From positions 1 to 54,607 of the forward strand of contig JANXYN010000027.1 in the NCBI GenBank assembly GCA_025356035.1: DNA of 54,607 nucleotides. Direction: 5' to 3'. Numbering within the stretch: the stretch's first letter is position 1; every line of letters begins with the position of its first letter. The translations under genes were made by a program, and so were the position numbers. The DNA is from Geobacteraceae bacterium (GTDB lineage Bacteria > Desulfobacterota > Desulfuromonadia > Geobacterales > Geobacteraceae). The notes under the pieces are model-generated. The model did not search any database and was not told where the DNA came from. It saw only the letters and a program-made list of their open reading frames with translations. This document shows positions 10,544 through 54,607 of this stretch, one piece after another.

Positions 10544-10776
10544 AGATTGTCCCCACCGATCTACCTAAACGTCACCCGCCATTTTATCGGAATGTCTGCG
10601 GACTACGCAGCCACCCCCCACTGTCCCACCTTTGGTCTACGGCCAGTCAGAGACGCAATTCCCTTTTAGCAGCAGTTTCGGCCACGCCTGCCAACCCTGG
10701 TACTGAAAATTATGGCATGTGGGGCGACTGTTGTGGTATAAAATAAAGTTTCAAATTTCCTCAAAGGGGATGGAGC

Positions 10777-12129
10777 ATGAAGATATCAGTTATCGGCACC
10801 GGTTATGTGGGGTTGGTGGCCGGCACTTGTTTTGCCGAGAGTGGCAATAGTGTGGTCTGTGTTGATGTTGATCAGAGCAAGATCGACGGGCTTAAGCAGG
10901 GCGTAATCCCTATTTATGAGCCAGGCCTCAAGGAGCTGGTGCTGCGCAACAGTGAAGAAGGGAGGCTCACTTTTAGTACGGATCTGGCTGCCTCGATCAA
11001 GTCCTCTTTGATCAATTTTATCGCGGTTGGTACCCCGCCAGGGGAGGACGGCTCGGCCGACCTCAAGCATGTGCTGGCCGTGGCCCGGGAAATTGGCCGG
11101 CAGATGGAGAGCTATAAGATAATTGTTGATAAATCGACCGTGCCGGTCGGGACGGCGGACCGGGTGCGGGCGGCGGTAAAAGAAGAACTGGCCAAGCGCG
11201 GAGTCACTATCGAGTTCGATGTGGTGTCCAACCCCGAATTTCTCAAAGAGGGGGCCGCCCTCGATGATTTCATGAAGCCAGACCGGGTGGTGATCGGCAC
11301 CGACAATGTCCGCACCGCCGAGATCATGAAGGAGCTCTATGCACCATTCATGCGCAAGAGTAACCGGCTGATCATCATGGACATCAAGAGCGCTGAGATG
11401 ACTAAATATGCCGCCAATGCCATGCTTGCCACCAAAATCGCCTTTATCAACCAGATCGCCAACCTCTGCGAGCGGCTTGGGGCCGATGTGGCTGCAGTGC
11501 GCGAAGGGATCGGCTCCGATTCCCGGATCGGCTATGATTTTCTCTTCCCAGGAGTAGGTTATGGTGGTTCCTGCTTTCCCAAGGATGTGAAAGCCCTGGT
11601 CAAAACCGCCGAAGAGAATGGTTATGATTTTCTCTTACTGCGGGCGGTGGAAGCGGCCAATGAGCTGCAGAAAGAGGTTCTGACCGAAAAGATCGCCGCC
11701 TATTTCGCCCGGACCTCCCCGGAGCGGCCACTGGCTGGCAAGAATATTGCCATTTGGGGGCTTTCGTTCAAACCGCGCACCGACGACATGCGGGAAGCCC
11801 CATCGGTGGTGATCATCAACCGTCTGCTGGAGATGGGAGCAAAGGTCTCTGCCCATGATCCGGAAGCGATCCGGGAGGCGCAGAAGATCTTTGGCGATCG
11901 CATCAGTTACAGCCACAATCTTTACGAGATCCTGCCGGGAGCCGATGGCCTCGCCATCGTCACCGAGTGGAACGAATACCGCAACCCGGACTTTGATAAA
12001 ATCCGGGAGCTGATGAAACAGCCGCTCATCTTTGATGGCAGAAACCTGTATGAGCCACGCCGGATGCGTGATGCCGGTTTCGACTATTTCCCGATCGGCC
12101 GCAACGGTAAAACAATGCTGGAAGGGTAA
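10777..12129 (+). CDS. ugd: UDP-glucose 6-dehydrogenase
   Basis: Oxidises UDP-glucose twice to UDP-glucuronate using NAD. The Rossmann motif GTGYVGLVAG is at the N terminus, and the catalytic cysteine is C266 in GYGGSCFPKD. The length of 450 residues is normal. A strong ribosome site (GGGGATGGAG) precedes the ATG. It is followed 78 bases later by a UDP-glucuronate decarboxylase gene, so the pair most likely makes UDP-xylose, a sugar donor for surface polysaccharide. No glycosyltransferase cluster is next to them. Confidence 0.95.
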   Translation: MKISVIGTGYVGLVAGTCFAESGNSVVCVDVDQSKIDGLKQGVIPIYEPGLKELVLRNSEEGRLTFSTDLAASIKSSLINFIAVGTPPGEDGSADLKHVLAVAREIGRQMESYKIIVDKSTVPVGTADRVRAAVKEELAKRGVTIEFDVVSNPEFLKEGAALDDFMKPDRVVIGTDNVRTAEIMKELYAPFMRKSNRLIIMDIKSAEMTKYAANAMLATKIAFINQIANLCERLGADVAAVREGIGSDSRIGYDFLFPGVGYGGSCFPKDVKALVKTAEENGYDFLLLRAVEAANELQKEVLTEKIAAYFARTSPERPLAGKNIAIWGLSFKPRTDDMREAPSVVIINRLLEMGAKVSAHDPEAIREAQKIFGDRISYSHNLYEILPGADGLAIVTEWNEYRNPDFDKIRELMKQPLIFDGRNLYEPRRMRDAGFDYFPIGRNGKTMLEG

Positions 12130-12130
12130 A

Positions 12131-12193
12131 GAGGGGTGAGGAGTGAGGGGTGACTTTGAGCTTTTGAACCTCGAACTTGTGAACTTTGAACAA
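12131..12193. repeat. Heptamer-period repeat patch between ugd and the decarboxylase gene
   Basis: Begins with GAGGGGT, GAGGAGT, GAGGGGT (12131-12151) and continues with GAAC-containing units such as TTTGAAC, CTCGAAC, TTGTGAAC and TTTGAAC. The period is about seven although the words change. No protein is encoded. It resembles in design, not in sequence, the patches at 1525, 25937, 28301 and 53871. Confidence 0.5.
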
Positions 12194-12207
12194 AAAAGGG
12201 TTTAGTT

Positions 12208-13143
12208 ATGCGCATTCTGGTCACCGGCGGCGCCGGGTTCATAGGCTCCCATCTCTGCGAAAGGCTGCTCGGCGAAGGGCATGAAGTCCTCTGCCTCGAC
12301 AATTTTTTTACCGGCAGCAAAGGGAATATTGAGCCGCTTCTCGATCACCACCGGTTCGAGCTGATTCGCCACGATATAACCCAGCCGATTCTGCTCGAGG
12401 TGGAGCGGGTCTACAACCTGGCTTGTCCCGCCTCCCCTATCCATTACCAGTATAACCCGGTGAAGACCATCAAGACGAGCGTGCTCGGGACTATTCACAT
12501 GCTTGGCCTGGCCAAGCGGGTGCGGGCGAGGATCCTGCAGGCATCGACTTCGGAGGTTTACGGCGACCCCCAGGTTCATCCGCAGACCGAGAATTACTGG
12601 GGGCATGTCAATCCGATCGGGATCAGAAGCTGCTACGATGAGGGGAAACGGGTGGCTGAGACGCTGATGATGGATTATCACCGGCAAAACCAGGTGGATA
12701 TCCGTATCGTCCGTATCTTCAACACCTATGGCCCACGGATGGCTGTCAATGACGGCCGGGTGGTTTCCAATTTCATCGTTCAGGCGCTCCGTGGAGAGGA
12801 TCTTACGGTCTATGGCGATGGTAGCCAAACCCGCTCCTTCTGCTATGTGGACGATCTGGTCGAAGGGATGATCAGAATGATGGAACGTGAAGCGGTTACC
12901 GGCCCCCTGAATCTGGGGAATCCAGCCGAGACCTCCATTCTGGAATTTGCCCAGCGCATCATCGATCTTACCGGCTCAACGTCGCGGATTGTGTTTAAAC
13001 CCCTGCCGGCTGATGATCCGCAACAACGCCGTCCGGAGATCAGCATGGCCAGGGAAATGCTTGGCTGGCAACCTGACGTTCCCCTTGAAGCTGGCCTACG
13101 CAAGACGATCGACTATTTTACCGCGCTGCTGGCTCGGGGTTAG
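12208..13143 (+). CDS. UDP-glucuronate decarboxylase (UDP-xylose synthase), SDR family
   Basis: Extended short-chain dehydrogenase with the NAD-binding GGAGFIGS motif (7-14), the [10 protein letters not shown] segment and a YDEGKR catalytic Tyr-x-x-x-Lys. The stretch [18 protein letters not shown] is characteristic of UDP-xylose synthases and distinguishes it from the epimerases GalE and RmlB. It would convert UDP-glucuronate from Ugd to UDP-xylose. The length of 311 residues is normal for the soluble bacterial enzyme. It is followed 20 bases later by the ftsB-like gene. Confidence 0.9.
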
Positions 13144-17879: not shown

Positions 17880-18015
17880 ATTAACTTGTAACTGGCGACG
17901 CTTTTGTGATAATTTAACAAACTTCCTGCAACTATACTATACACGGCATTTATTCAGCCAAGCCGGCGGCACATCCAGATTGGTGCCTGTCGTGCTCAAA
18001 TACATGGGGGTAACC

Positions 18016-19836
18016 TTGAATCAATTTTACAAAAACCTGGCGCTCTGGCTCGTTATTATCCTGATGATGGTCCTTTTGTTTAACGTCATGAAAGACCAGC
18101 ACCAAACCCAGGCTCCGCTCAGTTTCAGCGAGTTCCTCACGGCGGTTGACGCCGGCAAGGTTACTTCAGTGACTCTCCAGGGAAATGACATTACTGGGAC
18201 CTATGTTGATGGCAAGGAATTCAAATCCTATAAACCGGCAGATGCGCTCCTCTCTGACAAGCTCTACGGCAAAAATGTGAAAATCACCGCTACGCCCGAG
18301 GCGGAGAAGATTTCCTGGTTCTCCATATTCATTTCGCTGTTTCCGGTGATCTTGCTAGTGGGGATCTGGATCTTTGTCATGCGACAGATGCAGGGGGGGG
18401 GCGGCAAGGCGATGGCTTTTGGCAAGAGTCGCGCCAAGCTCCTCAATGAGACGGAAGGACGGATCACGTTCGATGACGTGGCCGGCGTGGAAGAGGCCAA
18501 GGAGGAACTGGAGGAGATCATCGCCTTCCTCAAGGACCCGAAGAAATTTACCAAGCTGGGGGGGCATATTCCGAAAGGGGTGCTGCTGGTAGGCTCTCCC
18601 GGGACCGGTAAGACTTTGCTGGCCAGGGCCATAGCTGGCGAGGCAGGGGTGCCGTTCTTCACTATTTCCGGCTCCGACTTCGTCGAGATGTTCGTAGGCG
18701 TAGGCGCCAGCCGGGTCCGTGACCTGTTTCTGCAGGGGAAAAAGAACGCCCCCTGCATCATCTTCATCGATGAAATCGATGCGGTCGGCCGGCATCGCGG
18801 CGCCGGCCTGGGCGGAGGCCATGACGAGCGGGAGCAGACCCTTAACCAGTTGCTGGTGGAGATGGACGGCTTCGAGTCGAACGAGGGGGTGATTCTGATC
18901 GCCGCCACCAACCGTCCTGACGTGCTTGATCCGGCTTTACTCCGTCCCGGCCGCTTTGACCGGCAAGTGGTGGTGTCGCGTCCAGACGTGAAGGGGCGGG
19001 AAGCCATTCTCAAGGTCCATACCAGAAAAACTCCCCTTGGTCCCGACGTGGAGCTGGCGTTTATTGCCCGGGGGACCCCTGGTTTCTCTGGGGCGGACCT
19101 GGCCAACGTGGTGAATGAGGCGGCCCTATTGGCAGCCCGTAAAGACAAGAGTATGGTCGAGATGGAAGACTTCGACAATGCCAAGGACAAGGTGCTGATG
19201 GGGGTGGAACGCCGCAGCATGGTCATTTCCGACGAAGAGAAAAAGAACACCGCCTATCACGAAGCCGGCCATACCTTGGTAGCCAAACTGATTCCCGGCA
19301 CCGATCCGGTGCACAAGGTCTCCATCATCCCGCGGGGCAGGGCGCTTGGCGTTACCATGCAGCTCCCGATCGAGGACAAGCACAGCTATTCTAAGGAGTT
19401 TCTCCTGAACAAGATTGCCGTGCTGATGGGGGGGCGAGCCGCCGAAGAGATCATCTTCAGCAGCAGGACTACTGGCGCGGGGAACGACATCGAACGGGCC
19501 ACCGAGATTGCCCGCAAGATGATCTGCGAGTGGGGGATGAGTGACAAGATGGGGCCGGTGAACTTTGGCAAGAAGGAGGAGCAGATCTTCCTCGGCCGGG
19601 AAATGGCTACCCACAAAAACTACAGCGAGGCGACCGCCGTGGAGATCGACACCGAGATCAGGCGCATTGTTGAGGACAATTACAAGCGGGCCCACGAGCT
19701 CATTGCCGATCGCATCGAGATCATGCACAAACTCTCCGAGGCGCTGATTGAAAAGGAGAGTCTGACCAGTTTCGAAGTCGATGAGATCATGGCAGGGCGG
19801 CAACTTGCCGCACCAATAGTGGTCCCTGCGGTGTAA
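18016..19836 (+). CDS. ftsH: ATP-dependent zinc metalloprotease FtsH
   Basis: Membrane-anchored AAA+ protease that degrades damaged membrane proteins and regulatory substrates. Two transmembrane helices (about 7-24 and 101-122) flank a small periplasmic domain. The AAA module has Walker A GSPGTGKT (193-200) and Walker [10 protein letters not shown]. The zinc site is HEAGH (415-419). The TTG at 18016 is chosen ([11 protein letters not shown], the usual family N terminus; GGGGGT upstream), giving 606 residues. An ATG four codons earlier lacks a ribosome site. The stop overlaps the folP start by one base. Confidence 0.95.
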
Positions 19837-20693
19837 TGACGAGATCTTCGCAGTTATGGGAGATCGGCAACCGCGCCCTTGATCTGTCCCTGCGTCCCTT
19901 GATCATGGGGATTCTTAATGTGACCCCCGATTCGTTTTCCGACGGCTCCCTGTTTCTTGATCCGCAGCGGGCAGTGGCCCGAGCCCTGGAGATGGAAGCT
20001 GAGGGGGCAGATATTATCGACATCGGGGGGGAAAGCACCCGCCCCAATGCAGCACCGGTTGATGAGGCTGAGGAGTTGCGGCGGGTGCTGCCGGTTCTGG
20101 AGAGGCTTGCCGGCCAGCTAAAAATCCCGGTATCCATTGATACCTACAAGGCGGCAGTGGCGGAAAGAGCCCTGGCAGCAGGGGCAGAGATCGTTAACGA
20201 CATCAGCGGCCTCACCTTTGACGAGCGGATGGGAGAGGTGGTTGCTGCGGCCAGGGCTGGTCTGGTCGTGATGCACACCCGGGGCACGCCTGCCGAGATG
20301 CAGAAGGAAACCGGCTATCGCTCGCTGATCGGTGAAATTACCCAGTCGCTGCGGGCTTCGCTGGCCAGGGCTGAATCTGCCGGGATTGCTGCAACGCGGG
20401 TGGTCATCGACCCCGGCATTGGCTTTGGCAAAAGTGTTGACGGCAACCTGGAAATATTAGCGCGGCTCCGGGAGTTTGCCGTGCTGGGGCGGCCGATCCT
20501 GATTGGTACTTCCCGCAAATCCTTTATTGGCAAGGTGCTTGGCAGAGAGGGGGGAGACCGCCTCTTTGGCACGGCGGCAACGGTAGCCGTAGCCCTGCTC
20601 AATGGGGCCTCTATTTTTCGGGTCCATGATGTGAGGGAGATGCGCGATCTGGTCGATATGACCCAGGCAATAGTGAAGCATGCTCCCCCGTAA
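19836..20693 (+). CDS. folP: Dihydropteroate synthase
   Basis: Condenses 6-hydroxymethyl-dihydropterin pyrophosphate with p-aminobenzoate in folate synthesis; it is the sulfonamide target. Both family signatures are visible: IMGILNVTPDSFSDGS near residue 25 and IDIGGESTRPNA near 65, with NDISG and the DPGIGFGKS loop later. The length of 285 residues is normal. It begins on the last base of the ftsH stop codon, so translation is coupled, and lies five bases before cdaA. Confidence 0.96.
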   Translation: MTRSSQLWEIGNRALDLSLRPLIMGILNVTPDSFSDGSLFLDPQRAVARALEMEAEGADIIDIGGESTRPNAAPVDEAEELRRVLPVLERLAGQLKIPVSIDTYKAAVAERALAAGAEIVNDISGLTFDERMGEVVAAARAGLVVMHTRGTPAEMQKETGYRSLIGEITQSLRASLARAESAGIAATRVVIDPGIGFGKSVDGNLEILARLREFAVLGRPILIGTSRKSFIGKVLGREGGDRLFGTAATVAVALLNGASIFRVHDVREMRDLVDMTQAIVKHAPP

Positions 20694-42659: not shown

Positions 42660-43697
42660 TTGCCGTACCGCCTGCTTATAGTGTTGATTTTCATTTTTGT
42701 CTCAGGCTGCTCCTGGATCCATGGCGACCCGCTTCCGCTGCGTGATCCCGGCGTTGATCTGGTCTGGCCGCGTCCCCCTGACCAGGCACGGATCAGATTC
42801 CTGCGTGTGATCAACGGTCCAGACGATCTCCTGCCAGAGAAGGGCCGTGCGCGGCGTCTCTTCGACATGGTTACCGGAGAGCTGGAGCAAAAAGTGGAGT
42901 TTTCCACTCCTTATGCCATTGCCACCGATGGCGGTTCTATCATCTACATTGCTGACAGTGCCGCCGGGGTGGTACATCGCTATGATCTGGCCGCCAGGGA
43001 GGTTTCGTATATATTCCAGGCCGGTGAGGAATTCCTTGAAAGCCCGGTCGGGGTGGCGGTGGATCAGGGGGGGAACCTTTATGTTGCCGATTCCGTCAAG
43101 GCGCGGGTTTACAAATTCAGCAAGAATGGCTCCTTTCTCCGGGAACTTGGCGCGAGAACGGTGACGTTGCAACGGCCTGCCGGTATCGCCATCAACAGCC
43201 GAGGTGAAAAGCTGGTCGTTGATGTTTTGGCACACAAATTGAAGGTTTTTGCCCAGGATGACACTTTTGTGCGGGATTTCCCCCGTGAAGGGGCCGGTGA
43301 ACCGCTCAACCTCCCCTCCAGTGTCGCAATCGACCGCAATGACGACGTTTACGTCACCGATTCCATGAACTTCAAGGTCAAGGTGTACGACCGGGAGGGG
43401 AACTTCAAAAAGGCGATCGGTGAAATAGGGGATGCACCCGGTTCTTTCGCTAGGCCGAAGGGTGTCGCCGTTGACAGCGAGCTCCACGTATATATCATCG
43501 ATGCCACCTTTGGCAATTTCCAGGTTTTTAATCAAGAGGGGAAGCTCCTGATCTTCATTGGCAGAAACGGCAAGGGGCCCGGCGAGTTTTCCCTTCCGAG
43601 CGGTATCTTTATCGATGGCGGCGACCGGATTTTTGTTGCGGACACTTATAACGGCAGGGTCCAGATTTTTCAGTATCTCAAACAGGGTGGTAGGTAA
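42660..43697 (+). CDS. NHL-repeat beta-propeller lipoprotein
   Basis: A lipoprotein signal with lipobox VSGC near residue 16 is followed by a six-bladed NHL-type propeller. Repeated units such as PVGVAVDQGGNLYVADS, PSSVAIDRNDDVYVTDS and PSGIFIDGGDRIFVADT are easily seen. It is probably outer-membrane anchored. The TTG at 42660 (GGGAG upstream) begins a clean signal peptide; an earlier open frame from 42498 overlaps the small membrane protein and is not signal-like. The length is 345 residues. The stop overlaps the next start (TAATG), tying it to the cytochrome gene. NHL proteins often accompany multihaem cytochromes in Geobacter, perhaps as scaffold. Confidence 0.85.
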   Translation: MPYRLLIVLIFIFVSGCSWIHGDPLPLRDPGVDLVWPRPPDQARIRFLRVINGPDDLLPEKGRARRLFDMVTGELEQKVEFSTPYAIATDGGSIIYIADSAAGVVHRYDLAAREVSYIFQAGEEFLESPVGVAVDQGGNLYVADSVKARVYKFSKNGSFLRELGARTVTLQRPAGIAINSRGEKLVVDVLAHKLKVFAQDDTFVRDFPREGAGEPLNLPSSVAIDRNDDVYVTDSMNFKVKVYDREGNFKKAIGEIGDAPGSFARPKGVAVDSELHVYIIDATFGNFQVFNQEGKLLIFIGRNGKGPGEFSLPSGIFIDGGDRIFVADTYNGRVQIFQYLKQGGR

Positions 43698-44545
43698 TGG
43701 GGAAGAAACTCATATTTCTGGCAGTCGTTGCAACGTCTCTTTTATATGTCGAAGCAGCTCTTGCGGCCGGGCCGAAACTTTCAGAGAGTTTGGGCGTAAA
43801 TAGCAACAAGCACAATCTATCTTCGAAGAGTGCCAATACCTATAAGGCGGCAGTAAATGCAGCTGACCCATCCCAGCGGGATACCCAGATCTGCATTTTT
43901 TGCCACACCCCGCACAATTCTTCTCCCCAGGGTGCCCTGTGGAACCGTAATGATATTACGGTTTCTTTTGGCCGGTACTCTTCAGCAACACTAGTGATCC
44001 GAAACTTCGCCTCGGCTAAATACGCGGAGCCTAATGGTTCTTCTCGGCTCTGCCTTAGCTGCCACGATGGGGTCACCGCCCTCGGGATGGTGAAAAATGG
44101 TGCGCAGATCTTTATGCAGGGGGGGCAAGACAAGCTTACCGGCATAGCTGTGTTTGACGCAAAGAAAGTGAAACTTGGGCATCATCCGGTGTCGTTCGTC
44201 TATAATGATCAGGCGCTCTTGGATGCTTTAAATCTGAAAACGGGGCTTTATGCCGGCACTTACAGGTTTCCAACCAACCCTGCGGTCCCTGCTGATGTGA
44301 CCGCAGTGGTTAAGCTCGACAAGCTCAGTCGGATGCAATGTGCAACCTGCCACGATCCCCACCAGAACCAGTCATTGGAGGATGTCTATCCTTCATCCAC
44401 CAGAAAAATTGCTCCTTTCTGGGTTTTTCACGAAAATAATCCCCTTGCCACTGCGGTCTCGGACCATGATGCGGTGTGCAAAGCCTGTCATCCATTTACT
44501 AACTACGATCCTGCGGTGCCAACTCGACCCTGGCCGTCCCCGTGA
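43697..44545 (+). CDS. Tetrahaem c-type cytochrome
   Basis: A signal peptide (1-24, ending ALAA) and four CXXCH haem sites: CIFCH (66-70), CLSCH (119-123), CATCH (215-219) and CKACH (261-265). Extra histidines (for example GHHPVSF, HNSS and DPH) can serve as distal ligands. At 282 residues it has few haems per residue, so it may be mainly a scaffolded electron carrier. It is translationally coupled to the NHL lipoprotein. A role in periplasmic or extracellular electron transfer is inferred from family and context. Confidence 0.92.
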   Translation: MGKKLIFLAVVATSLLYVEAALAAGPKLSESLGVNSNKHNLSSKSANTYKAAVNAADPSQRDTQICIFCHTPHNSSPQGALWNRNDITVSFGRYSSATLVIRNFASAKYAEPNGSSRLCLSCHDGVTALGMVKNGAQIFMQGGQDKLTGIAVFDAKKVKLGHHPVSFVYNDQALLDALNLKTGLYAGTYRFPTNPAVPADVTAVVKLDKLSRMQCATCHDPHQNQSLEDVYPSSTRKIAPFWVFHENNPLATAVSDHDAVCKACHPFTNYDPAVPTRPWPSP

Positions 44546-44576: not shown

Positions 44577-45647
44577 ATGTTAATCCAACGCCTGCTTCTC
44601 ATGGCTGCCATGCTCTCTCTTTCAATCTCTGCTCTGGCCGCCACCTCCGTGACACCTCCTCATCTTGACCGGCAAAAGCTTCCCTACGGCTGCGGCTCTT
44701 GTCATGTGGGGTTTAATTTCAGAACAGGGGCTGGTTCAGATGGTTGTGTGGCTTGTCATGGCAATCCTTCTAAATTAGCTACTGGCTTGATTGGCGGTGG
44801 GCTTAAGCTCAAAGATATTGAGGCGGAGTTCAAGAAGACTTACCGTCATCCGGTCTTTGACGCCCCCGGTCTGCACAACGGCAACGAAACGCTCCCCGAA
44901 ACCGATCCGCGGGCGCCGCGCCATGCGGAGTGCGTTGACTGCCACAACCCCCACTATGTCGACCCCGCCAACCGTTTTGCCGGGATCAAGGGGAAGCGGG
45001 TCGGCAACCTGACTGCCGACATCACACAGGAGTATGAGCTCTGTTACAAGTGTCATGGTGACAGCGCAAATCTCCCCGGCCGCTACACCAACAAACGGGC
45101 GGAGCATTCGATTAATAACCCCTCCTTCCACCCGGTGGAAGGGGAGGGAAAAAACCTGGCGGTGGTCAGTCTCCTGCGGCCTTACAAGGAGAAGAAGGTG
45201 GCGCCGAATGATGTCTCCGTTATCAAGTGCGCCGACTGCCATGGCAGCGACAACGCCGCTTCTCCCATTGGCCCCCACGGCTCGAACTTCCAGTATATTC
45301 TGGTGGACAACTATTCCACCAAGGATAATCAGCCGGAAAGCCCTTACACCTATGCCCTCTGCTATCGCTGCCACAGCCGCACCAGTATCCTGGCCAACGA
45401 GAGTTTCAAGTTCCACGCCAAGCATATCCAGGGGACCAACCAGGGATTGGCTAACGGCACGTCCTGTTATACCTGCCACAATTCCCACGGTAGCTCGGAC
45501 AACCGGTATCTGATCAAGTTCAACCCGGCAGTGGTCACCCCCAATGCCCGGGGGGTGCTGAAGTTCGCCGAGAAGGGGATATCGACCTTCCAGGGGGAGT
45601 GTTTCCTCTCTTGCCATGGTGTGGACCATGATCCGAAGAGCTATTAA
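44577..45647 (+). CDS. Multihaem c-type cytochrome, seven CXXCH plus one CX3CH
   Basis: A signal peptide (1-21) and seven CXXCH motifs at residues 39, 57, 119, 156, 218, 262 and 297. An eighth motif near the C terminus has three residues between the cysteines (C342-FLS-C346-H347). CX3CH haem sites are known but uncommon. CHNPH and CHNSH segments resemble the doubled-CXXCH family. The length is 356 residues. It follows the tetrahaem gene by 31 bases, and a strong two-way hairpin follows at 45732, so it ends the NHL-cytochrome transcript. Likely exported electron-transfer protein. Confidence 0.92.
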   Translation: MLIQRLLLMAAMLSLSISALAATSVTPPHLDRQKLPYGCGSCHVGFNFRTGAGSDGCVACHGNPSKLATGLIGGGLKLKDIEAEFKKTYRHPVFDAPGLHNGNETLPETDPRAPRHAECVDCHNPHYVDPANRFAGIKGKRVGNLTADITQEYELCYKCHGDSANLPGRYTNKRAEHSINNPSFHPVEGEGKNLAVVSLLRPYKEKKVAPNDVSVIKCADCHGSDNAASPIGPHGSNFQYILVDNYSTKDNQPESPYTYALCYRCHSRTSILANESFKFHAKHIQGTNQGLANGTSCYTCHNSHGSSDNRYLIKFNPAVVTPNARGVLKFAEKGISTFQGECFLSCHGVDHDPKSY

Positions 45648-45808: not shown

Positions 45809-47017
45809 ATGCCACTTTATACCTCCAAACTCGGCTCTCCTGACGGCAGGATCGTCAAAAAGGATTTTGAAGCCGCATCGGCAAAGATCCTTCGGCAGAG
45901 CCTGGAAGAGCAGGGTTTTTCCGTATTCGAGCTCAAGGAAAAACCTTTTCAGTTCCTTTGGGACAAGGGGATTGCGCGCCGTCGGGTCGACAACAAGACG
46001 CTCCTCACCTTCAACCAGGAACTGCTTGTCCTAATCAAGGCTGGTCTGCCGATCATCCAGGTGCTCGACACCATTCTGGAGCGGCTGGAAAAGGGGAAGC
46101 TGCCGGAGATCTTACGGGAGGTACGGGAGGATATTAAGGGGGGGGCATCCCTGTCCGACTCCTTCGAGAAACATCCGAAGGTTTTCCCTCATCTTTATGT
46201 CGCATCCATCCGCGCCGGCGAGCGGACCGGCGACCTGCCGCAGAACATCAAGCGCTACACGCTTTTCCTGAAAAGGATCGAGGCGCTACGCAAGAAGCTT
46301 TATTCCGCCATGGTGTATCCGGCCATCCTGGTTTTTTTCTCGGTGGTTGTCGTGTCGGTCCTGTTTATCTTTGTGGTGCCGGAATTCAGTAAGGTATTTG
46401 CCGATGCCGGGACTCAGCTGCCGCTGGCCACCCGAATTCTGATGACTGCCGCCGGTCTATTGAAAAAGTATATCCTCCTCCTGATCGTCCTGGGGATTGC
46501 CGGGCTGGCCATGTTCAGGCGCTGGGCTGCCACGGAAACCGGCCGGTTCCGGGTTGATGGGTTAAAGCTGAAGATCCCCCTGCTTGGAGATATCTGGGGC
46601 AAATACTCGGTGGCCAGTTTCACCAGAACCTTTGCCAGTGTCCTCGCCAGTGGCATTCCGATTGTCGAGTCGCTGAAGATGTGTGCCGGTACCCTTAACA
46701 ACAAAGTGCTGGAGCGGAAGCTGCTTGAGGCAGTGGTCAGGGTGGAAGAGGGGACCCGACTCTCCATTGCCCTTGAGTCGGCACGATTGATGCCCCCCCT
46801 GGCCATCAGGATGCTTGGGGTGGGGGAAACGACTGGTTCGCTGGAAGAAATGCTGTCGGATATTTCCGAATACTTTGAAGATGAGATAGACGGGCGGCTT
46901 ACCGTGCTGACCTCCATTATCGAGCCGGTGATCCTGATCTGCATGGGGCTTTTCATCGGCACCATCGTCATAACCATGTATCTGCCAATATTCAAACTGG
47001 CTGGCGCGGCAGGTTAA
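45809..47017 (+). CDS. gspF: Type II secretion inner-membrane platform protein GspF
   Basis: Two repeated T2SSF domains (about 70-195 and 270-395) with three transmembrane segments, the clearest being YPAILVFFSVVVVSVLFIFVVP near 170 and the last before the C terminus (IIEPVILICMGLFIGTIVITM in part). GspF couples the ATPase to pseudopilus assembly. The N terminus MPLYTSK matches the usual GspF/PilC start, yet no ribosome site precedes it, so it may be leaderless or coupled otherwise. The length is 402 residues. It opens the operon, 11 bases before gspE. Confidence 0.93.
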   Translation: MPLYTSKLGSPDGRIVKKDFEAASAKILRQSLEEQGFSVFELKEKPFQFLWDKGIARRRVDNKTLLTFNQELLVLIKAGLPIIQVLDTILERLEKGKLPEILREVREDIKGGASLSDSFEKHPKVFPHLYVASIRAGERTGDLPQNIKRYTLFLKRIEALRKKLYSAMVYPAILVFFSVVVVSVLFIFVVPEFSKVFADAGTQLPLATRILMTAAGLLKKYILLLIVLGIAGLAMFRRWAATETGRFRVDGLKLKIPLLGDIWGKYSVASFTRTFASVLASGIPIVESLKMCAGTLNNKVLERKLLEAVVRVEEGTRLSIALESARLMPPLAIRMLGVGETTGSLEEMLSDISEYFEDEIDGRLTVLTSIIEPVILICMGLFIGTIVITMYLPIFKLAGAAG

Positions 47018-47027
47018 AGAAACGCAT

Positions 47028-48749
47028 ATGACCCAGAACTACAAGCGGAAAATTATTGGCGATATACTGGTTGACCGGGGTGATCTCGATCCGGCGAAGC
47101 TCCCTTTTGTCATCGACCGGCTGAAGACGAGCCGGGAGCGATTTGGGAGGATCTGCGTCAGTGAGGGGTTGATCACCGAAGAGGCATTGGCCAAGGCCCT
47201 GGCGGAGCAGTTTGGGTTTGACTATGTCGATCTTAAAGGCTTCAAGATGGATGAGGCGCTGCTCGGTTTGCTCCCCCCCGATGCTATCTATCGTTACCAC
47301 TTTGTGCCGCTGGCTGCCCAGGACGATGGCCTGGTAGTGGCCATTTCCGACCCGACCGACGTAATCAGGCTCGATGAACTGGAACTCCTTCTTGATCGCC
47401 CCCTCATCATCAGGCTCGCCGCCTTAACGGACATTGAAGCGGTGCTGAAAAAAGGTGAGGGGACCAGCCGCGTCCTTAAGGGGGTTTCTGAAGATTTCAT
47501 GCTGCAGCTGGTGAAGGAGACCGACAAGGGGGAAGAAATTCTGTCGGTGGAAAAAATCTCCGAAGACACCAGCCCGATCATCAAGCTGGTCAATTCCACC
47601 ATCATGGATGCGCTTTCCAAGCGGGCGAGCGACATTCACATCGAGAGCAACCAGGACGGGGTTATCGTCAAATACCGGATTGACGGCGTGCTCTACAAGG
47701 CGATGGATCCCATCGACGGACATTTTCAGGGGCCAATCATCTCCCGGCTCAAGGTCATGAGCGAGCTGGATATTTCCGAGCGGCGCATCCCCCAGGACGG
47801 CAGGTTTAAGGTGCGATTCGCCGACAAGGCCATCGACTTCCGGGTCTCCATTATGCCGAGCGTCTTCGGTGAGGATGCGGTCATCCGTATCCTCGACAAG
47901 GAGAGTATCGCCAGCAACCTGAAGGGGCTGACCCTGGAAGCGCTCGGCGTCCATGATCGGGAGCGAAAGAGGATCCGCAAGTTCATTCATGAGCCGTACG
48001 GGATGTTTCTCGTCACCGGCCCCACCGGTTCCGGTAAGACCACCACCCTCTATGCGGCACTGAGCGAAATCCATACCGGCGAAGACAAGATCATTACCAT
48101 CGAGGACCCGGTGGAGTACCTGTTGCGCGGTATCGTCCAGATCCCGGTCAATGAGAAAAAGGGGCTGACCTTTGCCCGGGGCCTCCGTTCCATCCTGCGA
48201 CATGACCCGGACAAGATCATGGTCGGCGAGATCCGCGACCCGGAAACTGCCCAGATCGCGGTGCAGTCAGCACTGACCGGTCATCTGGTCTTCACCACGG
48301 TCCATGCCAACAACGCATTCGACGTCCTTGGCCGTTTCATCCATATGGGGATCGACCCCTATAACTTTGTTTCCTGCCTCAACTGCGTGCTGGCCCAGCG
48401 CCTGGTGCGCAAAATCTGTAGCAAATGCAAGGTGCCGGTTAGTTATGCCGACGAAACCTTGAGAGAAGCGGGGCTTGACCCCGAACAATGCCGCGACGTT
48501 ACCTTTTACGAGGCAAAGGGGTGTGACGAGTGCAACAATACTGGCTACCGCGGTAGATCGGCCATTGTGGAGCTTCTCGATCTTAACGATGAGGTGCGTG
48601 AGCTGATTGTGGCAAAAGCCCCGGCCGCCCAGTTGAAAAAAGCCGCCAGGGAAGCCGGCACCGTCTTTTTGCGTGATGCAGCAGTCGAAAAGGCCTTTGC
48701 TGGCGAGACTACCCTCCGTGAAATTAACCGGGTAACGTTTGTGGAGTGA
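47028..48749 (+). CDS. gspE: Type II secretion ATPase GspE
   Basis: Secretion ATPase of the GspE/PilB family. The N-terminal T2SSE_N domain is followed by the ATPase with Walker A GPTGSGKT (331-338), an Asp box and Walker B with MVGEIRDPETA. A tetracysteine zinc insert has C464, C467, C499 and C502 (CSKC...CDEC). Such a zinc site marks true assembly ATPases rather than retraction ATPases (PilT). The length of 573 residues is normal. It lies between gspF and a PilM-like gene. Confidence 0.94.
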   Translation: MTQNYKRKIIGDILVDRGDLDPAKLPFVIDRLKTSRERFGRICVSEGLITEEALAKALAEQFGFDYVDLKGFKMDEALLGLLPPDAIYRYHFVPLAAQDDGLVVAISDPTDVIRLDELELLLDRPLIIRLAALTDIEAVLKKGEGTSRVLKGVSEDFMLQLVKETDKGEEILSVEKISEDTSPIIKLVNSTIMDALSKRASDIHIESNQDGVIVKYRIDGVLYKAMDPIDGHFQGPIISRLKVMSELDISERRIPQDGRFKVRFADKAIDFRVSIMPSVFGEDAVIRILDKESIASNLKGLTLEALGVHDRERKRIRKFIHEPYGMFLVTGPTGSGKTTTLYAALSEIHTGEDKIITIEDPVEYLLRGIVQIPVNEKKGLTFARGLRSILRHDPDKIMVGEIRDPETAQIAVQSALTGHLVFTTVHANNAFDVLGRFIHMGIDPYNFVSCLNCVLAQRLVRKICSKCKVPVSYADETLREAGLDPEQCRDVTFYEAKGCDECNNTGYRGRSAIVELLDLNDEVRELIVAKAPAAQLKKAAREAGTVFLRDAAVEKAFAGETTLREINRVTFVE

Positions 48750-48758
48750 AAGGTTGCC

Positions 48759-49685
48759 ATGCTGTTTGCAAAGAATGCGGTAGGTATCGAAATTGGCAAT
48801 GACGGCCTGAAAATGGCCGTCATCGGTGGCAAAAGCATCATGCCGCGGCTTGATGCTTGGCAGAGTACCACCTTGCCGGCTGAGACCGTCAGGTTTTCCC
48901 ATCGGGAAGCGAATGTGTTGAATGCTCCGGTCTTCGTCAGCAAAATCCGTGATACCTATATCAGACTACTTACCGGTACCCGGCGTGTTTCGTTGTCACT
49001 TCCCGATACCATCGGCCAGGTACGGCTGCTGGAACTGGAGACCAGGTTCAAAAGTCGGGACGAGGGGGCTGACATCATTCGCTGGAAGCTGAAAAAAAGC
49101 CTCCCTTTTGATGTGAACGAGGCCCATCTCGACTATCAGGTGCTGACAGAAACAGACACAGGCGAAATCGCCGTGCTGGTGTCGCTCATCATGCGGCAGG
49201 TCGTGAACCAGTACGAAGAGTTGTTGCTGGAATCCGGCTTGGAGCCGGTACGTATCGATTTCACCTCGTTCAATCTCTATCGGCTTTATTCCCGGCGGCT
49301 GGAGCTTGCGGAAAGCTCCGTAGTGATTTCCCACTATGGCGGGATGCTGAGTATCCTCATTTTTCATGATGGGGTGCTCGATTTTTACCGGGTCAAGGAG
49401 CTTTCCGCTGGCAAGGGGAATGCCAGCACCCTGTTCCGCGAGATCAACAGCTCGCTGCTGGTCTATCGTGATACCAAGCCTGCGCGCACTTTCAGGGAGG
49501 TCTTTTTCATGGCCCCCCAAGAGGAAGCAGAGCCGTTGCGGCAGATCATTGCAGAAATTTGCGCCCTTGAGCCGGTCCTGCTCGATGTTGGGCAGTTCAT
49601 CACCCGCCGGGAGGGAGTTGCCTTCGACCGGCAAACCTTGTACACTCTGGCTGCTGCCGTCGGTGCCGCGATGAGGGCTTTGTAA
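48759..49685 (+). CDS. PilM/GspL-like actin-fold platform protein
   Basis: A 308-residue protein beginning AVGIEIGNDGLKMAVI, the phosphate-1 strand of the actin-like PilM fold, with later DFTSFNLYRL and VVISHYGGMLSILI strands. No transmembrane helix is seen. In type IV pili PilM binds PilN on the cytoplasmic face; in classical type II systems GspL fuses the two roles. Here the split PilM-like plus PilN-like arrangement is used. GAAAGG precedes the ATG. It overlaps the next gene by one base. Confidence 0.82.
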   Translation: MLFAKNAVGIEIGNDGLKMAVIGGKSIMPRLDAWQSTTLPAETVRFSHREANVLNAPVFVSKIRDTYIRLLTGTRRVSLSLPDTIGQVRLLELETRFKSRDEGADIIRWKLKKSLPFDVNEAHLDYQVLTETDTGEIAVLVSLIMRQVVNQYEELLLESGLEPVRIDFTSFNLYRLYSRRLELAESSVVISHYGGMLSILIFHDGVLDFYRVKELSAGKGNASTLFREINSSLLVYRDTKPARTFREVFFMAPQEEAEPLRQIIAEICALEPVLLDVGQFITRREGVAFDRQTLYTLAAAVGAAMRAL

Positions 49686-50218
49686 TGCGTTTCAGAATTA
49701 ACCTCGCAACCAGGACCTATGTCAACGCCGGCCAGCTCAAAGCTGCGATTGCCGCGGCGTTAGCGCTGCTGGCGCTCCTGCTGCTGATCAATATCCAGCG
49801 GTTTGCTGCCAACGCCGGTGAGACGATGCGCCTGCGAAATGAACTGGGGGTCTCCAAGGGGGGCGGCAAGGTTGTATCCGACCAGGAATATCAGGCACTT
49901 CTGGCCAGAATCAAGTTTGCCAACGGTGTTATTGAGAACAAAACCTTTGACTGGCTGGCATTGCTTGATAAGCTGGAATTAGTGGTCCCTGACGGGATTT
50001 CCCTGACCAAGATCGAGCCTGATATCAGGAAGAACGAGCTCAAGGTCAGTGGTGTGGCAAGGGATTTCAAGAACCTGCGCCATTTCATGGAAAATCTGGA
50101 AGGTTCCGCCACCTTTACCAACGTCTACCTCCTTGGCCAAGGGTTGCCAGGCAGTGGCGAGAAGTTCAAGGGGATAACCTTCAACATTGCCTGCCAGGTG
50201 GATTTTAAAAAGTTATGA
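49685..50218 (+). CDS. PilN-like platform protein
   Basis: A 177-residue bitopic protein that starts MRFRINLATRTY, matching the short cytoplasmic PilN motif that docks into PilM. A single transmembrane helix follows (about 19-38), then a coiled and ferredoxin-like periplasmic domain (GISLTKIEPDIRKNELKVSGVARDF in part). It begins on the last base of the PilM-like stop and overlaps the PilO-like start as ATGA. Confidence 0.82.
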   Translation: MRFRINLATRTYVNAGQLKAAIAAALALLALLLLINIQRFAANAGETMRLRNELGVSKGGGKVVSDQEYQALLARIKFANGVIENKTFDWLALLDKLELVVPDGISLTKIEPDIRKNELKVSGVARDFKNLRHFMENLEGSATFTNVYLLGQGLPGSGEKFKGITFNIACQVDFKKL

Positions 50219-50760
50219 AACTTTTCCTTGAGATCATAAAAGGGCGGAAGAAGACCTTTGTCTTCCTGGTCGCCCTGTTGGCTGTCAACATCGGTATCTA
50301 CACGTATGTTGCCTTCTTTCAGGAGCCTCGGCTTGAGCTCTTGCGCAAGAGCTGGGTTGATATGCGACGGCAGACGGAGAGTGGTGGGAGCTGGGACCCT
50401 GCGGCCGTTTTCAGCCAGGGTACCACCGATCTGGCGACTTTTCAGACCAGGATGCCGACAAAGAAGGAATATGCCCGGCTGGTCGGGGAGTTGTTCGAGA
50501 TGGCGGCCGATAATGGCCTGCAGGTCAAAGGAATCTCCTATAAACCGACGCCGCTCAAGGAAGAAAAATTACTGTTGTACACCATCACGTTGGGTGTGGC
50601 AGGCAAGTATGCGGCGGTGAAGAGTTTCATCGCCGACCTGGAGCAGCTGCACGATCTGATCACCATTGACCATATCTCTCTTGACGGTGATGCGGCGACT
50701 GAAGAATCGGTAAAAATGCAACTTCAGCTCACCGCTTATTTACGGATGGAGGGGCAATGA
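50215..50760 (+). CDS. PilO-like platform protein
   Basis: A 181-residue protein with one transmembrane helix (about 15-36, VFLVALLAVNIGIYTYVAFF), a short coiled region and a C-terminal ferredoxin-like domain (about 95-178). This is the layout of PilO/GspM, which pairs with PilN in the periplasm. It has ATGA overlaps on both sides. Sequence similarity in this family is low, so the call rests partly on position. Confidence 0.78.
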   Translation: MKLFLEIIKGRKKTFVFLVALLAVNIGIYTYVAFFQEPRLELLRKSWVDMRRQTESGGSWDPAAVFSQGTTDLATFQTRMPTKKEYARLVGELFEMAADNGLQVKGISYKPTPLKEEKLLLYTITLGVAGKYAAVKSFIADLEQLHDLITIDHISLDGDAATEESVKMQLQLTAYLRMEGQ

Positions 50761-51344
50761 ACCGGCAGAAACTGACCCTTGCCATTCTGTTGCTGATTTT
50801 GGTCCTGGCTCTGCTCTACAGTTTCTGGCGGACACCACGGCAGCAAAGGGTGGCGAAGCTCAAATACATCCCTGGCGTCGTGGCTGAAACCGCCAGGACG
50901 GTCAAACCGGCGCCCCTTGATGAGAAAAGGGTGCATCTGGAGCTGCTTGACCGGAAGTCCCGGAGGTTTTCTGGGTTCCGCCGCAATATTTTCCGCCCCT
51001 TTTTTCAGGAGGAGGCTGATTCCCTTCCCCAGACAGCCCGGCTCCCCGCTTCTTCTCCACCGCCGGTAGTGCCGCCTCCACCACCGGTGGTGGAGCCAAC
51101 CCCGCTGCAAAGGGATTTGGCGGCGTTTACCTTTCTTGGTTTCCTGAAAAAAGAGCAGCGCAAGACCATCTTCCTGGCGAAGGGGAAAGAGATTTTTCTG
51201 GTGCGGAAGGGGGATCGGATTGCCGGCAAATACGAAGCGGTGGAAATATCCGATGAAGCCCTGACCATCAGTCTCCTGGAAGACGGTGGTGAAATTGTCA
51301 TTCCGCTGGTGGAAAACATGGCGCTCAGCGCCCCCCGGCGCTAG
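50757..51344 (+). CDS. GspC/PilP-like connector protein
   Basis: A 195-residue protein with an N-terminal transmembrane helix (about 5-23). A Pro-rich spacer (about 98-118, PPPVVPPPPPVVEPTP) leads to a C-terminal all-beta domain (about 122-190, FTFLGFLKKEQRKTIFLAK onward) like the homology region of GspC and PilP. That domain links the inner-membrane platform to the secretin. Its place just before the secretin gene supports this. Confidence 0.75.
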   Translation: MNRQKLTLAILLLILVLALLYSFWRTPRQQRVAKLKYIPGVVAETARTVKPAPLDEKRVHLELLDRKSRRFSGFRRNIFRPFFQEEADSLPQTARLPASSPPPVVPPPPPVVEPTPLQRDLAAFTFLGFLKKEQRKTIFLAKGKEIFLVRKGDRIAGKYEAVEISDEALTISLLEDGGEIVIPLVENMALSAPRR

Positions 51345-51380: not shown

Positions 51381-53828
51381 ATGAGATATATACAAAAGCT
51401 GGCCCTGATTTGCTGTTGCCTGGCGCTGCTGGCAGGTTGTGCCGCCGGCCGCTCAGCCTTCAATACTGGCCTGGAACTCGAGCAGGCTGGAAAACTCGAT
51501 GAGGCGGTGCTGAAATATGCCGAGGCGGCCCAGGCCGACCCGGAGGCCGGAGAATACCGGTTGCGCTTTCTGAAAGCACGTGAACAGGCCGCCATGGTCC
51601 ATTTGAAGCTTGGTGACGACGTCATGGCCGAACAAAAATATGACGAGGCGTTCCAGCAGTATCAGACTGCGCTGGCCCTGAATCCCGGTCTGGATCGTGC
51701 TGCGCTGGGTTCTGCCAAGGCCGGCAAGCTGCGGGATGCACTGCAGTTTTTCAAGGAGGGGGAGAATTTTGAAAAGAACAACAAGCAGCGGGACGCCTAC
51801 CGTTCCTACAAAAAGGTGCTGGAGCTGAACCCAGAGCAGCCTGGCGTCAAGGAAGCCCTCGACCGGCTTCTCAGGAACAGGCGGATTAAAATTGACGGCT
51901 ATGAGTTGAACCTGAAATCGAACAAACCAATTACCCTGAAATTCAAGGACACCCGGCTCAAGGATGTCTTCAATATCCTCTCCCAGTTGTCCGGGATCAA
52001 TTTCATCTATGACGAAGGTCTCAAGGACCAGAACATCAATATCTATCTGGAGAACGCCACCTTTCAACAGGCCCTGGAGATTCTCACCAGTCTGAGCAAG
52101 CTGGGGAAGAAAGTGCTGAACGATAGCACCATCATCCTCTACCCGAAGACGCCGGACAAGGCCAAGCAGTATGAGGAACTCGTGGTTCAGACTTTCGTTC
52201 TTAGTCATCTGGACGCAAAAAAGGCAGTGAACCTTCTGCGCACTATGCTGCAGCTGAAGAAGGTTTATGTGAACGAGGATCTGAACGCGATCGTGGTCCG
52301 CGACACCCCCGAGATGGTGGAGGTGGCTCAGAAGATTATCGACGCCAACGACATGCCGGACGCCGAGGTGCTCCTCGAGGTGGAGGTAATCGAATTCACC
52401 AGTTCCAATGCGGAAAATTTCGGGCTCACTCTCTCGACCTATGGGGTGTCGGGAGTGCTGGCCAAAAACAACCAACTCCTTTCCGACAAGTTGAGCACGG
52501 TGACTACTACCAGTGGCACCACTACGACTACGGCTCCGTCCAACCTCCTCAACGTTTTCAATTCAGGGAGCTACTCCGGGTTTATCACAGTCCCCTCTGC
52601 CACCTACAACTTCGGCAAGACTCTGGCTAATGGCGAAACTCTCGCCAACCCGAAGATCCGGGTAAAGAACCGGGAAAAGGCCAAATTCAACGTGGGGACC
52701 CGCTTGCCGATCACTACTACCTCAACCAACGGCACGGTCGGGGGGGTCAGTGTCAATGTCCAGTATGTGGATGTGGGGGTAAAACTTAATGCCGAGCCGA
52801 CCATTCAGGTGGATAATGGCGTCAATATCAAGGTGAGTCTCGAAGTAAGCTCGGAGCTGAAGCGGGAAACTGTTGGCGGCCCAGAATCAGCGACGGTCGT
52901 CTCCACCATCGGCACCCGTAACCTGGATACCGTCCTCAGTCTCAAGGATGGCGAAACCAGTATCATCGGCGGGCTGATCCAGAACAGCAAGAGCAATAAT
53001 GCTAAAAAAATCTACCTGATCGGCGACATCCCGCTGATCGGGCCACTTCTCTCTGGATACGCAAACTCTAAGGACAAGACCGAACTGGTGCTGGCCATTA
53101 CTCCGCGGATTGTCAGGTCGGTTTCGGTTCCTGAACCGGATCTTGCGCAGTTCTGGTCCGGCAGGGAAGACGATCCATCGACGGCCAAGCCGGGCGCAGT
53201 CTTCAGTCAGGAACCGGACCTGGCCCCGGAGCCGGCAGCGGCTCAATCTGTTAACGAGACGCCTGCAGCCAAGGCGGCCCCTGCTCCATTGCCTGCAGCA
53301 GCGCCAGCTCAGGTCCCAGTCCCAATCGTGGCTCCAGCCCCAGTTGAGGCTCCAGCGACGACTCCGGTTCAGCCGCCACCTGCGGCGCAGCAGCCAGTTA
53401 TGCAGCGTCCAGTCGCGAAGGGGGTGCTCAATCTGATTGTGCGGGCTTCAGTGAAGGTAGGCGAGCAGTTTGCCGTTGAGGTGCGGGGCACCAATCTGCA
53501 GAACATCTACAGCGCTCCGTTCACCCTGGTTTACGATCCGCTCTTTGTCGATTTTGTCGGCGTAGTCGAAGGTGGTTTACTCAAACAGGACGGCAAACCG
53601 ACGGTCTTCCAGAGCTCGGTTGACCCTGCCACTGGCCGCCTCACCGTTACTCTCAGCAGGGTTGGCCAGGTGGTGGGAGTGAGCGGTGCCGGCACCCTGG
53701 TTACCGTCCAGTTACGTGCAAAAAAAGCAGGCCCAGCCAGCCTGGGGTTGCAGAACCTGAACTTCACTGCTGCTGGCGGGACTCCCCTGGAAATGCTCCC
53801 GTATAGTGCCCTGGTGGAGATCAAGTAA
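51381..53828 (+). CDS. gspD: GspD-type secretin with N-terminal TPR and C-terminal cohesin-like domain
   Basis: Outer-membrane channel of the secretion system. Domains in order: lipoprotein signal with lipobox LAGC (C20); TPR repeats (about 25-160); N domains beginning ITLKFKDTRLKDVFN (about 185-330); the secretin core (about 335-590) with VGVKLNAEPTIQ and SLKDGETSIIGGL; a Pro/Ala-rich linker (about 591-680); and a cohesin-like beta-sandwich (about 681-815, with VGEQFAVEVRG, FTLVYDP and VSGAGTLVTVQL). The 815 residues exceed usual GspD length because of the TPR and cohesin parts. GAGGAG precedes the ATG. The secretin assignment is firm; the cohesin call rests on motif recognition and its partner is unknown. 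Confidence 0.9.
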   Translation: MRYIQKLALICCCLALLAGCAAGRSAFNTGLELEQAGKLDEAVLKYAEAAQADPEAGEYRLRFLKAREQAAMVHLKLGDDVMAEQKYDEAFQQYQTALALNPGLDRAALGSAKAGKLRDALQFFKEGENFEKNNKQRDAYRSYKKVLELNPEQPGVKEALDRLLRNRRIKIDGYELNLKSNKPITLKFKDTRLKDVFNILSQLSGINFIYDEGLKDQNINIYLENATFQQALEILTSLSKLGKKVLNDSTIILYPKTPDKAKQYEELVVQTFVLSHLDAKKAVNLLRTMLQLKKVYVNEDLNAIVVRDTPEMVEVAQKIIDANDMPDAEVLLEVEVIEFTSSNAENFGLTLSTYGVSGVLAKNNQLLSDKLSTVTTTSGTTTTTAPSNLLNVFNSGSYSGFITVPSATYNFGKTLANGETLANPKIRVKNREKAKFNVGTRLPITTTSTNGTVGGVSVNVQYVDVGVKLNAEPTIQVDNGVNIKVSLEVSSELKRETVGGPESATVVSTIGTRNLDTVLSLKDGETSIIGGLIQNSKSNNAKKIYLIGDIPLIGPLLSGYANSKDKTELVLAITPRIVRSVSVPEPDLAQFWSGREDDPSTAKPGAVFSQEPDLAPEPAAAQSVNETPAAKAAPAPLPAAAPAQVPVPIVAPAPVEAPATTPVQPPPAAQQPVMQRPVAKGVLNLIVRASVKVGEQFAVEVRGTNLQNIYSAPFTLVYDPLFVDFVGVVEGGLLKQDGKPTVFQSSVDPATGRLTVTLSRVGQVVGVSGAGTLVTVQLRAKKAGPASLGLQNLNFTAAGGTPLEMLPYSALVEIK

Positions 53829-53917: not shown

Positions 53918-54391
53918 ATGCGCATGAACAAACGCGGCCTCACCTTGGTGGAGCTGCTGATAACCTTGACCATTCTGTCGGTGCTGGCTTCGCTCATTCT
54001 CCCCATGGCACAGATGACCAACCGGCGGGTGAAGGAGATCGAGCTGCGGCGGAACCTGCGCGAGATCCGGATGAAGATTGATGAATTCAAGAGGGATTAT
54101 GATCGGCTGGTCACGGTCAGAGTCGTCGGCAAAAACGGCTATCCGGAAACCCTGAAGCAGCTGGTGGAGGGATACGATTTCGGCACGGTCGAAAAAACCA
54201 AGCGAAAGTATCTGCGCCGGATCCCAAGGGACCCGTTCAACCCCCCCAAGCCGGGGGAAGAGCAGGAATGGGGGCTTCGTTCCTATACTGATGAAGCAGA
54301 CAGTACCTCCTGGGGCGGGGAGGATGTTTTTGATGTCTATTCCCTGAGTGAAGAAACGGCCATTGATGGGACGAAATACAAGGATTGGTAG
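53918..54391 (+). CDS. gspG: GspG-like type II pseudopilin
   Basis: Prepilin with a short basic leader cut after KRG, then LTLVELLITLTILSVL with Glu at +5, the hydrophobic assembly helix. The C-terminal part has GYPETLKQL and RRIPRDPFNPPKPG, the latter typical of major pseudopilins, and DVFDVYSL. The length is 157 residues. It would be processed by the prepilin peptidase and form the piston of the secretion system. From memory, G. sulfurreducens has a pseudopilin, OxpG, in an atypical type II system needed for metal-oxide reduction; this gene may be its counterpart, but I cannot confirm that here. Confidence 0.9.
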   Translation: MRMNKRGLTLVELLITLTILSVLASLILPMAQMTNRRVKEIELRRNLREIRMKIDEFKRDYDRLVTVRVVGKNGYPETLKQLVEGYDFGTVEKTKRKYLRRIPRDPFNPPKPGEEQEWGLRSYTDEADSTSWGGEDVFDVYSLSEETAIDGTKYKDW

Positions 54392-54548: not shown

Positions 54549-54607
54549 ATGCTGCGAAAGCTGTTAAAAAACCGTCGAGGCTTCACCCTGATCGAGCTGA
54601 TGGTCGT
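54549..54607 (+). CDS. Prepilin-type pseudopilin, 5' end only
   Basis: The first 19 codons of a gene cut by the window edge: a basic leader with NRRG, then FTLIELMV, the type IV prepilin cleavage and helix motif with Glu at +5. GGGAAG lies upstream. It is probably a minor pseudopilin (GspH, I or J) of the same operon; which one cannot be told. Confidence 0.8.
   Translation, partial: MLRKLLKNRRGFTLIELMV

Follow-up and report, generated by a model that had tools for sequence, protein, structure and literature searches.

A cohesin domain at the C-terminus of a secretin lineage of the Geobacterales, a candidate docking arm for exported proteins

The window analysed here is a 54,607-nucleotide stretch from a Geobacteraceae bacterium (GenBank assembly GCA_025356035.1, contig JANXYN010000027.1, positions 1 to 54,607 of the forward strand), and it carries at 51381..53828, on the forward strand and in a single open reading frame, the gene for a secretin lipoprotein of 815 amino acids that ends in a cohesin domain. 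The identity of this C-terminus as a true cohesin, a binding module familiar above all from cellulosomes, is confirmed, and in one lineage of secretins such a domain is commonly present. We propose that it is a docking arm binding dockerin-type modules of exported proteins, a reading to which we give even chances and for which the locus itself encodes a candidate partner.

Results

The cohesin domain occupies residues 682-815 (53424..53825), where the Pfam match lies at 53442-53738. PF00963 (Cohesin) was matched at residues 688-786 with an E-value of 1.1e-11 and 45.5 bits against a cut-off of 24.1, and the AlphaFold2 model of residues 681-815, built from 67 sequences, has a predicted local distance difference test score (pLDDT) of 97.3 and a predicted template modelling score of 0.89. 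The top Foldseek match for this model is the cohesin-like module 2jh2 (E 3.7e-10), and in VIA-align rows 1-49 of 50 are cohesin, scaffoldin or cohesin-like-module entries with Z of 12.9 to 18.0, led by 2xdh (Z 18.0, root-mean-square deviation 1.6, 123 aligned). Cohesin chains also rank first when a 17-sequence profile is compared with solved structures, and the other three secretins of this genome have no Pfam cohesin match at E<=1. A chance motif match is thus ruled out by Pfam, by the fold and by these secretins as controls, and the original prediction of a secretin that continues through a Pro/Ala linker into a cohesin holds.

The remaining architecture is that of a lipid-anchored secretin, all parts lying on the forward strand. 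The N-terminal signal peptide has a lipobox (LLAGC, by eye) with its cysteine, Cys20, at 51438..51440, and this residue is invariant in 19/19 aligned orthologues. It is followed by a tetratricopeptide repeat (TPR) region at about residues 27-170 (51459..51890; Pfam TPR matches, outer limits by eye), the best stretch being residues 73-103, so that the TPR repeats and lipobox foreseen for this end of the protein are both present. Pfam then places an STN or N0-like domain at residues 206-256 (51996..52148), a single Secretin_N (N1) stretch at residues 269-327 (52185..52361) and the secretin core PF00263, the family by which the protein belongs to the Secretin superfamily, at residues 417-579 (52629..53117; E 5.3e-36). 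In the alignment of 19 orthologues the core is followed by a segment, VPEPDLAQFWSGREDDP (53127..53177), which contains the conserved FWSGREDDP and in which F591, S593, E596, D597 and P599 are invariant. The Pro/Ala linker, residues 600-681 (53178..53423), is 82 amino acids long with 51% Pro+Ala; across loci its length, taken from their coordinates, ranges from about 35 to 245 residues.

Of the 141 genomes of the order, 116, from 27 of 29 genera, have the cohesin domain of this secretin at E<=0.001, as a single copy in all but two, and this order-wide count rules out a single-genome oddity. For a closer view, 79 named loci were taken from the best 80 of 244 confirmed places found with a 19-member secretin alignment, a ranking by whole-length similarity that hence favours cohesin-bearing copies. 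Secretin and cohesin share one frame in 76 of these 79 loci, one of which is cut by a contig end; the cohesin lies in another frame in L106, and L131 and L135 are without it. In Trichlorobacter, two loci hold an extra secretin copy with a Pro-rich tail and no cohesin, so that neighbouring secretins with and without the domain stand at L132:9950-12307 and 17915-20278 and at L133:2216-4588 and 9905-12319; such pairs are a natural experiment on the role of the cohesin. A further secretin gene, in genome G122, is apparently split over two frames (L049:6596-8989), with intact relatives elsewhere. In a phylum sample of 345 genomes, the profile of the lineage matched 21 and PF00963 matched 29, and fusions of secretin and cohesin were found in 15, namely 12 of the 15 sampled members of the class together with G234, G261 and G446. 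The domain is therefore not shared by all ordinary GspD proteins, the circumstance that had been named as fatal to the original prediction: in the phylum sample fusions were seen in those 15 genomes, and this genome's other secretins lack it. Since the combination is visible to Pfam and widespread in the class, we do not regard the cohesin-secretin as categorically new.

The candidate partner is a family that we call Coh-Doc, whose members start with what looks like a signal peptide and a cohesin, continue through a disordered stretch and a beta-rich domain, and end in a dockerin-like tail. PF00963 recognises this cohesin in 12 of 15 members at E<=0.1 (the strongest match at 1.3e-8), and the modelled cohesin part (mean pLDDT 72) aligns to 2xdh with Z 14.8; for the middle domain, no known fold appears among the matches listed, which the cohesin part filled. 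The second EF-hand-like loop of the tail, with the motif D-x-N-x-D-x-x-x-D-Y-x-D-D, is present in 17 of 18 full-length members read, the remaining one having Ala for Tyr. When 14 Coh-Doc tails were compared with 17 dockerins of the order, hhalign returned a probability of 94.1%, and none of 50 column shuffles exceeded 2.8%, the control being these shuffled columns and not general EF-hands. Compared with solved structures, the tail gave weak matches, the best at E 0.34 being no dockerin and the dockerin chains standing at E 0.42 and 1.6. In G458 and G476, from another family of the class, a Coh-Doc relative lacks the cohesin and has both EF-hand loops by eye.

At E<=1e-6 the Coh-Doc family is present in 108 of 141 genomes, often in multiple copies. 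Copies of both genes are listed for 98 genomes, and in 42 of these Coh-Doc follows the secretin on the same strand, 5.5-9.0 kb downstream. This genome is one more linked case, as the Coh-Doc gene follows on contigs C70 and C57, which are joined to the window by overlaps: the final 26 bases of the window are the first 26 of C70, and the final 20 bases of C70 are the first 20 of C57. Coh-Doc was found in 104 of the 116 cohesin-secretin genomes and in 4 of the 25 without the cohesin (Fisher 5e-13), a co-occurrence that we do not treat as proof, since common descent and the incompleteness of some genomes may contribute to it. None of the 108 genomes with Coh-Doc belongs to genus g27, in which 7 of the 11 genomes listed are without the cohesin.

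Canonical dockerins, defined by Pfam Dockerin_1 (PF00404) at E<=1e-3, were found in just 49 of 141 genomes of the order and at that threshold in none of the other 92, which rules out a universal canonical dockerin partner. Four of the 12 Dockerin_1 proteins read, out of 13 selected, are multicopper oxidases with a C-terminal dockerin; in all four oxidases scanned both Cu-oxidase_2 and Dockerin_1 are over their cut-offs, the Dockerin_1 scores being 23.7-39.1 against 22.9 bits and the best E-value 8.8e-10. With one dockerin-oxidase as query, matches were obtained in 51 of 141 genomes, many of them distant, and 7 of the 30 oxidase loci read end in a dockerin, one per genome. For the G119 oxidase the dockerin was assigned only by reading the sequence, since it is missing from the Dockerin_1 matches. 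The cohesin-secretin and Coh-Doc are both present in all seven dockerin-oxidase genomes, a coincidence that is fairly likely by base rates. At the position where relatives have the dockerin, the oxidases of L206, L208, L209 and L211 carry C-terminal repeats resembling WYLDxNGNGxWDGTPTD (by eye). A search of this genome for dockerin proteins, suggested with the original prediction, gave a single protein over the Dockerin_1 cut-off. Encoded on contig C221 (L190 / L003), it has 491 amino acids, with a hydrophobic segment at the N-terminus and the dockerin behind it; in a check for contamination, the tetranucleotide correlation of C221 falls within the range of pieces of the window.

The operon around the secretin encodes Gsp- and Pil-like parts of an export machine on the forward strand. 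It comprises a GspF/PilC-type platform protein (45809..47017), a GspE/PilB-type ATPase with an MshEN domain (47028..48749), a PilM/GspL-like protein (48759..49685), a PilN-like protein (49685..50218), a PilO/GspM-like protein (50215..50760), a protein without a Pfam match in the position of GspC/PilP (50757..51344), the secretin, a GspG-like pseudopilin with an N_methyl match and a GspG model below cut-off (53918..54391), and the start of a second pseudopilin, recognised by eye (54549..54607), which continues on C70. The ATPase (47028-48749) matches an MshE-related cyclic di-GMP-binding model at 39.2 against 38 bits, and with its MshEN domain this match suggests that the machine may be under cyclic di-GMP control. 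Upstream of the operon lie a multihaem c-type cytochrome gene (44577..45647, homologues in 23 of 79 loci), a second one (43697..44545, homologues in 22 of 79) and NHL genes; homologues of the upstream genes occur in 22-23 of the 79 named loci, some of which end short. Contig C70 holds, in order, the rest of the second pseudopilin, FtsE and FtsX (both over equivalog cut-offs), an M23 peptidase, an S41 protease, a small putative lipoprotein and the second cohesin protein, a gene order that matches Geotalea sp. SG265 by eye. The putative lipoprotein between the S41 protease and Coh-Doc (L189:4705-5370 on C70; also L085:17732-19279) looks cohesin-like by eye in its C-terminal part, and the copy of this genome has no Pfam match.

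The secretin had been described as a classical GspD, and this label proved wrong: the GspD equivalog model TIGR02517 (NCBIfam) scores 154.9 against a cut-off of 351.35 bits and the PilQ model TIGR02515 (NCBIfam) 146.4 against 284.35 bits, there is only one Secretin_N domain, and the partners are PilM-, PilN- and PilO-like. In Geobacteraceae, secretion of the multicopper oxidase OmpB is reported to depend on the Pul type II secretion system (T2SS), which has the pseudopilins PulG, OxpG and TklG and is located in the vicinity of cell-division genes (PMC3543383); the pulGPQF genes are those of the system needed for OmpB (PMC10599522), and both papers cite Mehta et al. 2006 for this ‘atypical’ Pul/Oxp T2SS. 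By gene order alone, the operon shows what that description names, T2SS genes with pseudopilins beside cell-division genes. We infer that it is the Pul/Oxp system, from gene order set against the published description and not from the gene sequences of G. sulfurreducens. The word ‘cohesin’ is absent from PMC3543383.

A separate arrangement of the same elements was found in G462, from another lineage of the phylum. Its T2SS operon (L253 = G462:C4:100500-119500) encodes a GspD of usual make-up, with N0, three Secretin_N stretches and core, then GspE, and then a free-standing cohesin with an apparent signal peptide, whose gene overlaps the end of gspE. Past a regulator-like gene (CRP-like by eye) follows a protein of 2153 amino acids that ends in Dockerin_1 (25.5 against 22.9 bits). 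Five other cohesin loci have no T2SS genes within the stretches examined. In L255 and L256 a cohesin gene stands beside a dockerin gene, and in L259 both domains are part of a single protein.

Discussion

The fold and conservation of the cohesin, its locus and its candidate partners are observed here; from them we propose a periplasmic location of the arm, binding and recruitment, and on the strength of the sequences docking is plausible. Solved T2SS secretins are 15-mers of which only the rim is in the outer membrane, the rest being periplasmic (PMC6532946), so that a C-terminal arm should hang in the periplasm. Every subunit of the ring would hold out one cohesin into the periplasm on its flexible Pro/Ala linker, and these cohesins would bind dockerin-type modules of cargo waiting there and so raise the concentration of cargo where it enters the channel. 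Coh-Doc, encoded in the locus, is the first candidate ligand, and through its own cohesin it could link other dockerin proteins to the channel, as an adaptor scaffoldin does. The cargo of some species could itself be a multicopper oxidase with a dockerin, multicopper oxidases being the class of protein that this T2SS reportedly exports. In its widest form, the proposal is that a cohesin-dockerin plug, together with an adaptor encoded in the locus, lets the channel choose its cargo and hold it in line for the export of redox enzymes of metal reduction, and that this solution has arisen twice, once fused to the secretin in this class and once as a free cohesin in a T2SS operon of another lineage; we hold this wider proposal more tentatively, at somewhat under an even chance.

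Several of our findings weigh against docking. The Coh-Doc tail is below the Dockerin_1 cut-off (the L085 member has 12.6 against 22.9 bits), the family is listed for just one of 15 Coh-Doc members (E 0.032), the first EF-hand is by reading degenerate in many members, the copy of this genome has a Pro/Ala stretch between the two halves, and G063 has a Coh-Doc match without a match to the tail. Among the matches listed there is no linked Coh-Doc in 56 of the 98 genomes, to which broken contigs contribute. Dockerin_1 at E<=1e-3 is found in only 46 of the 116 cohesin-secretin genomes, and 11 of the 116 have neither Coh-Doc (E<=1e-6) nor Dockerin_1 (E<=1e-3). A looser search of nine of these 11 gave one dockerin over cut-off, in G001 with its neighbours in frame, weak matches in G019, G091, G092, G122 and G136, and nothing in G125 (2 contigs), G137 and G138. 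The multicopper oxidase of this genome is without a dockerin, and 21 of the 30 oxidase loci have another C-terminal addition or none (4 with repeats, 17 ending soon after the copper motif); of the remaining two, a different long tail is shown in part in one, and no copper motif was found in the other. The arrangement of G462 was seen in one of 345 genomes, flanks of about 1.5 kb having been read for 29 of 43 PF00963 matches.

The same gaps lend some weight to a structural or assembly role, in which the cohesin would need no dockerin and would replace an S-domain or pilotin, or bind a machine part or peptidoglycan. Present in 116 of 141 genomes, as against 49 for Dockerin_1 at E<=1e-3, the cohesin is much the more constant of the two; the 11 genomes without either candidate partner at the thresholds, three of them without one in the looser search too, would be accounted for; and C-terminal regions of other secretins serve assembly (PMC6532946). 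Against this stand the secretins of the same family that have a Pro-rich tail and no cohesin, beside a cohesin copy in L132 and L133 and without one in the examined stretches of L131 and L135, whose existence makes the cohesin probably dispensable for building the channel. The N-terminal lipobox would already offer outer-membrane targeting and would presumably allow the secretin to pilot itself, so that replacement of a pilotin is less needed, and an assembly role leaves the locus-linked Coh-Doc family unexplained. We consider such a role rather unlikely.

Cohesins usually act outside cells, and a surface-exposed domain that tethers dockerin proteins after their export would be in keeping with this habit and with a linker of about 35 to 245 residues. 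The arm would need to pass through the channel to reach the surface, since solved secretins sit in the outer membrane by their rim alone (PMC6532946), and we regard surface tethering as improbable. Of the roles named in the original prediction, recruitment of substrates is thus the best supported, through the candidate partners, and surface tethering and pilotin replacement are less likely and rank below it. The secretin cohesin might instead bind another exported partner, for which the Coh-Doc cohesin and the multihaem cytochromes encoded nearby are examples. Genes of the latter stand immediately upstream here and have homologues in 22-23 of 79 loci, and 92 of 141 genomes have no canonical dockerin at E<=1e-3; no cohesin-cohesin or cohesin-cytochrome pairing came to light here, where no search aimed at one was made, and we judge a partner of this kind improbable. 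Docking of dockerin-type modules remains the reading that we prefer.

To our knowledge, how the T2SS recognises its folded substrates is a long-standing open question, as no general signal is known. If the docking proposal is true, a modular and well-understood binding pair makes this recognition testable by binding assays and removal of domains, and an extra step is added to the way in which metal-reducing bacteria export the proteins they deploy on insoluble iron and manganese oxides. No literature was found that links a cohesin to a bacterial secretin, as judged mostly by titles and the starts of abstracts, and we do not claim its absence from print; no papers were found for ‘secretin’, ‘cohesin domain’ and ‘type II secretion’ together. 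A paper on surface display, PMC13033320, contains both words ‘secretin’ and ‘cohesin’.

Comparison with known systems

The parallels to the present system come from several quarters. As in the operon described here, the reported Pul/Oxp system has Gsp- and Pil-like parts and two pseudopilins near FtsE/FtsX. In anaerobic methanotrophic (ANME) archaea and their sulfate-reducing partners, cohesin and dockerin proteins are discussed in connection with adhesion or surface assembly (PMC9012536, PMC10553843); these are likewise non-cellulosomal proteins of anaerobic, electron-transferring microbes, and the word ‘secretin’ occurs in neither text. The Coh-Doc protein resembles the adaptor scaffoldins and X-dockerin modules of cellulosomes in combining a cohesin, a beta-rich middle and a dockerin-like tail, but differs from cellulosomal scaffoldins in that its dockerin signature is weak and its middle domain has no match to an X-module. 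The domain itself resembles the cohesins of Archaeoglobus fulgidus (2xdh) and Clostridium perfringens (2jh2, 2vo8), which share its fold (Z 16.8-18.0) and likewise stand outside the cellulosome; whereas those cohesins are carried by other host proteins, the host here is a secretion channel.

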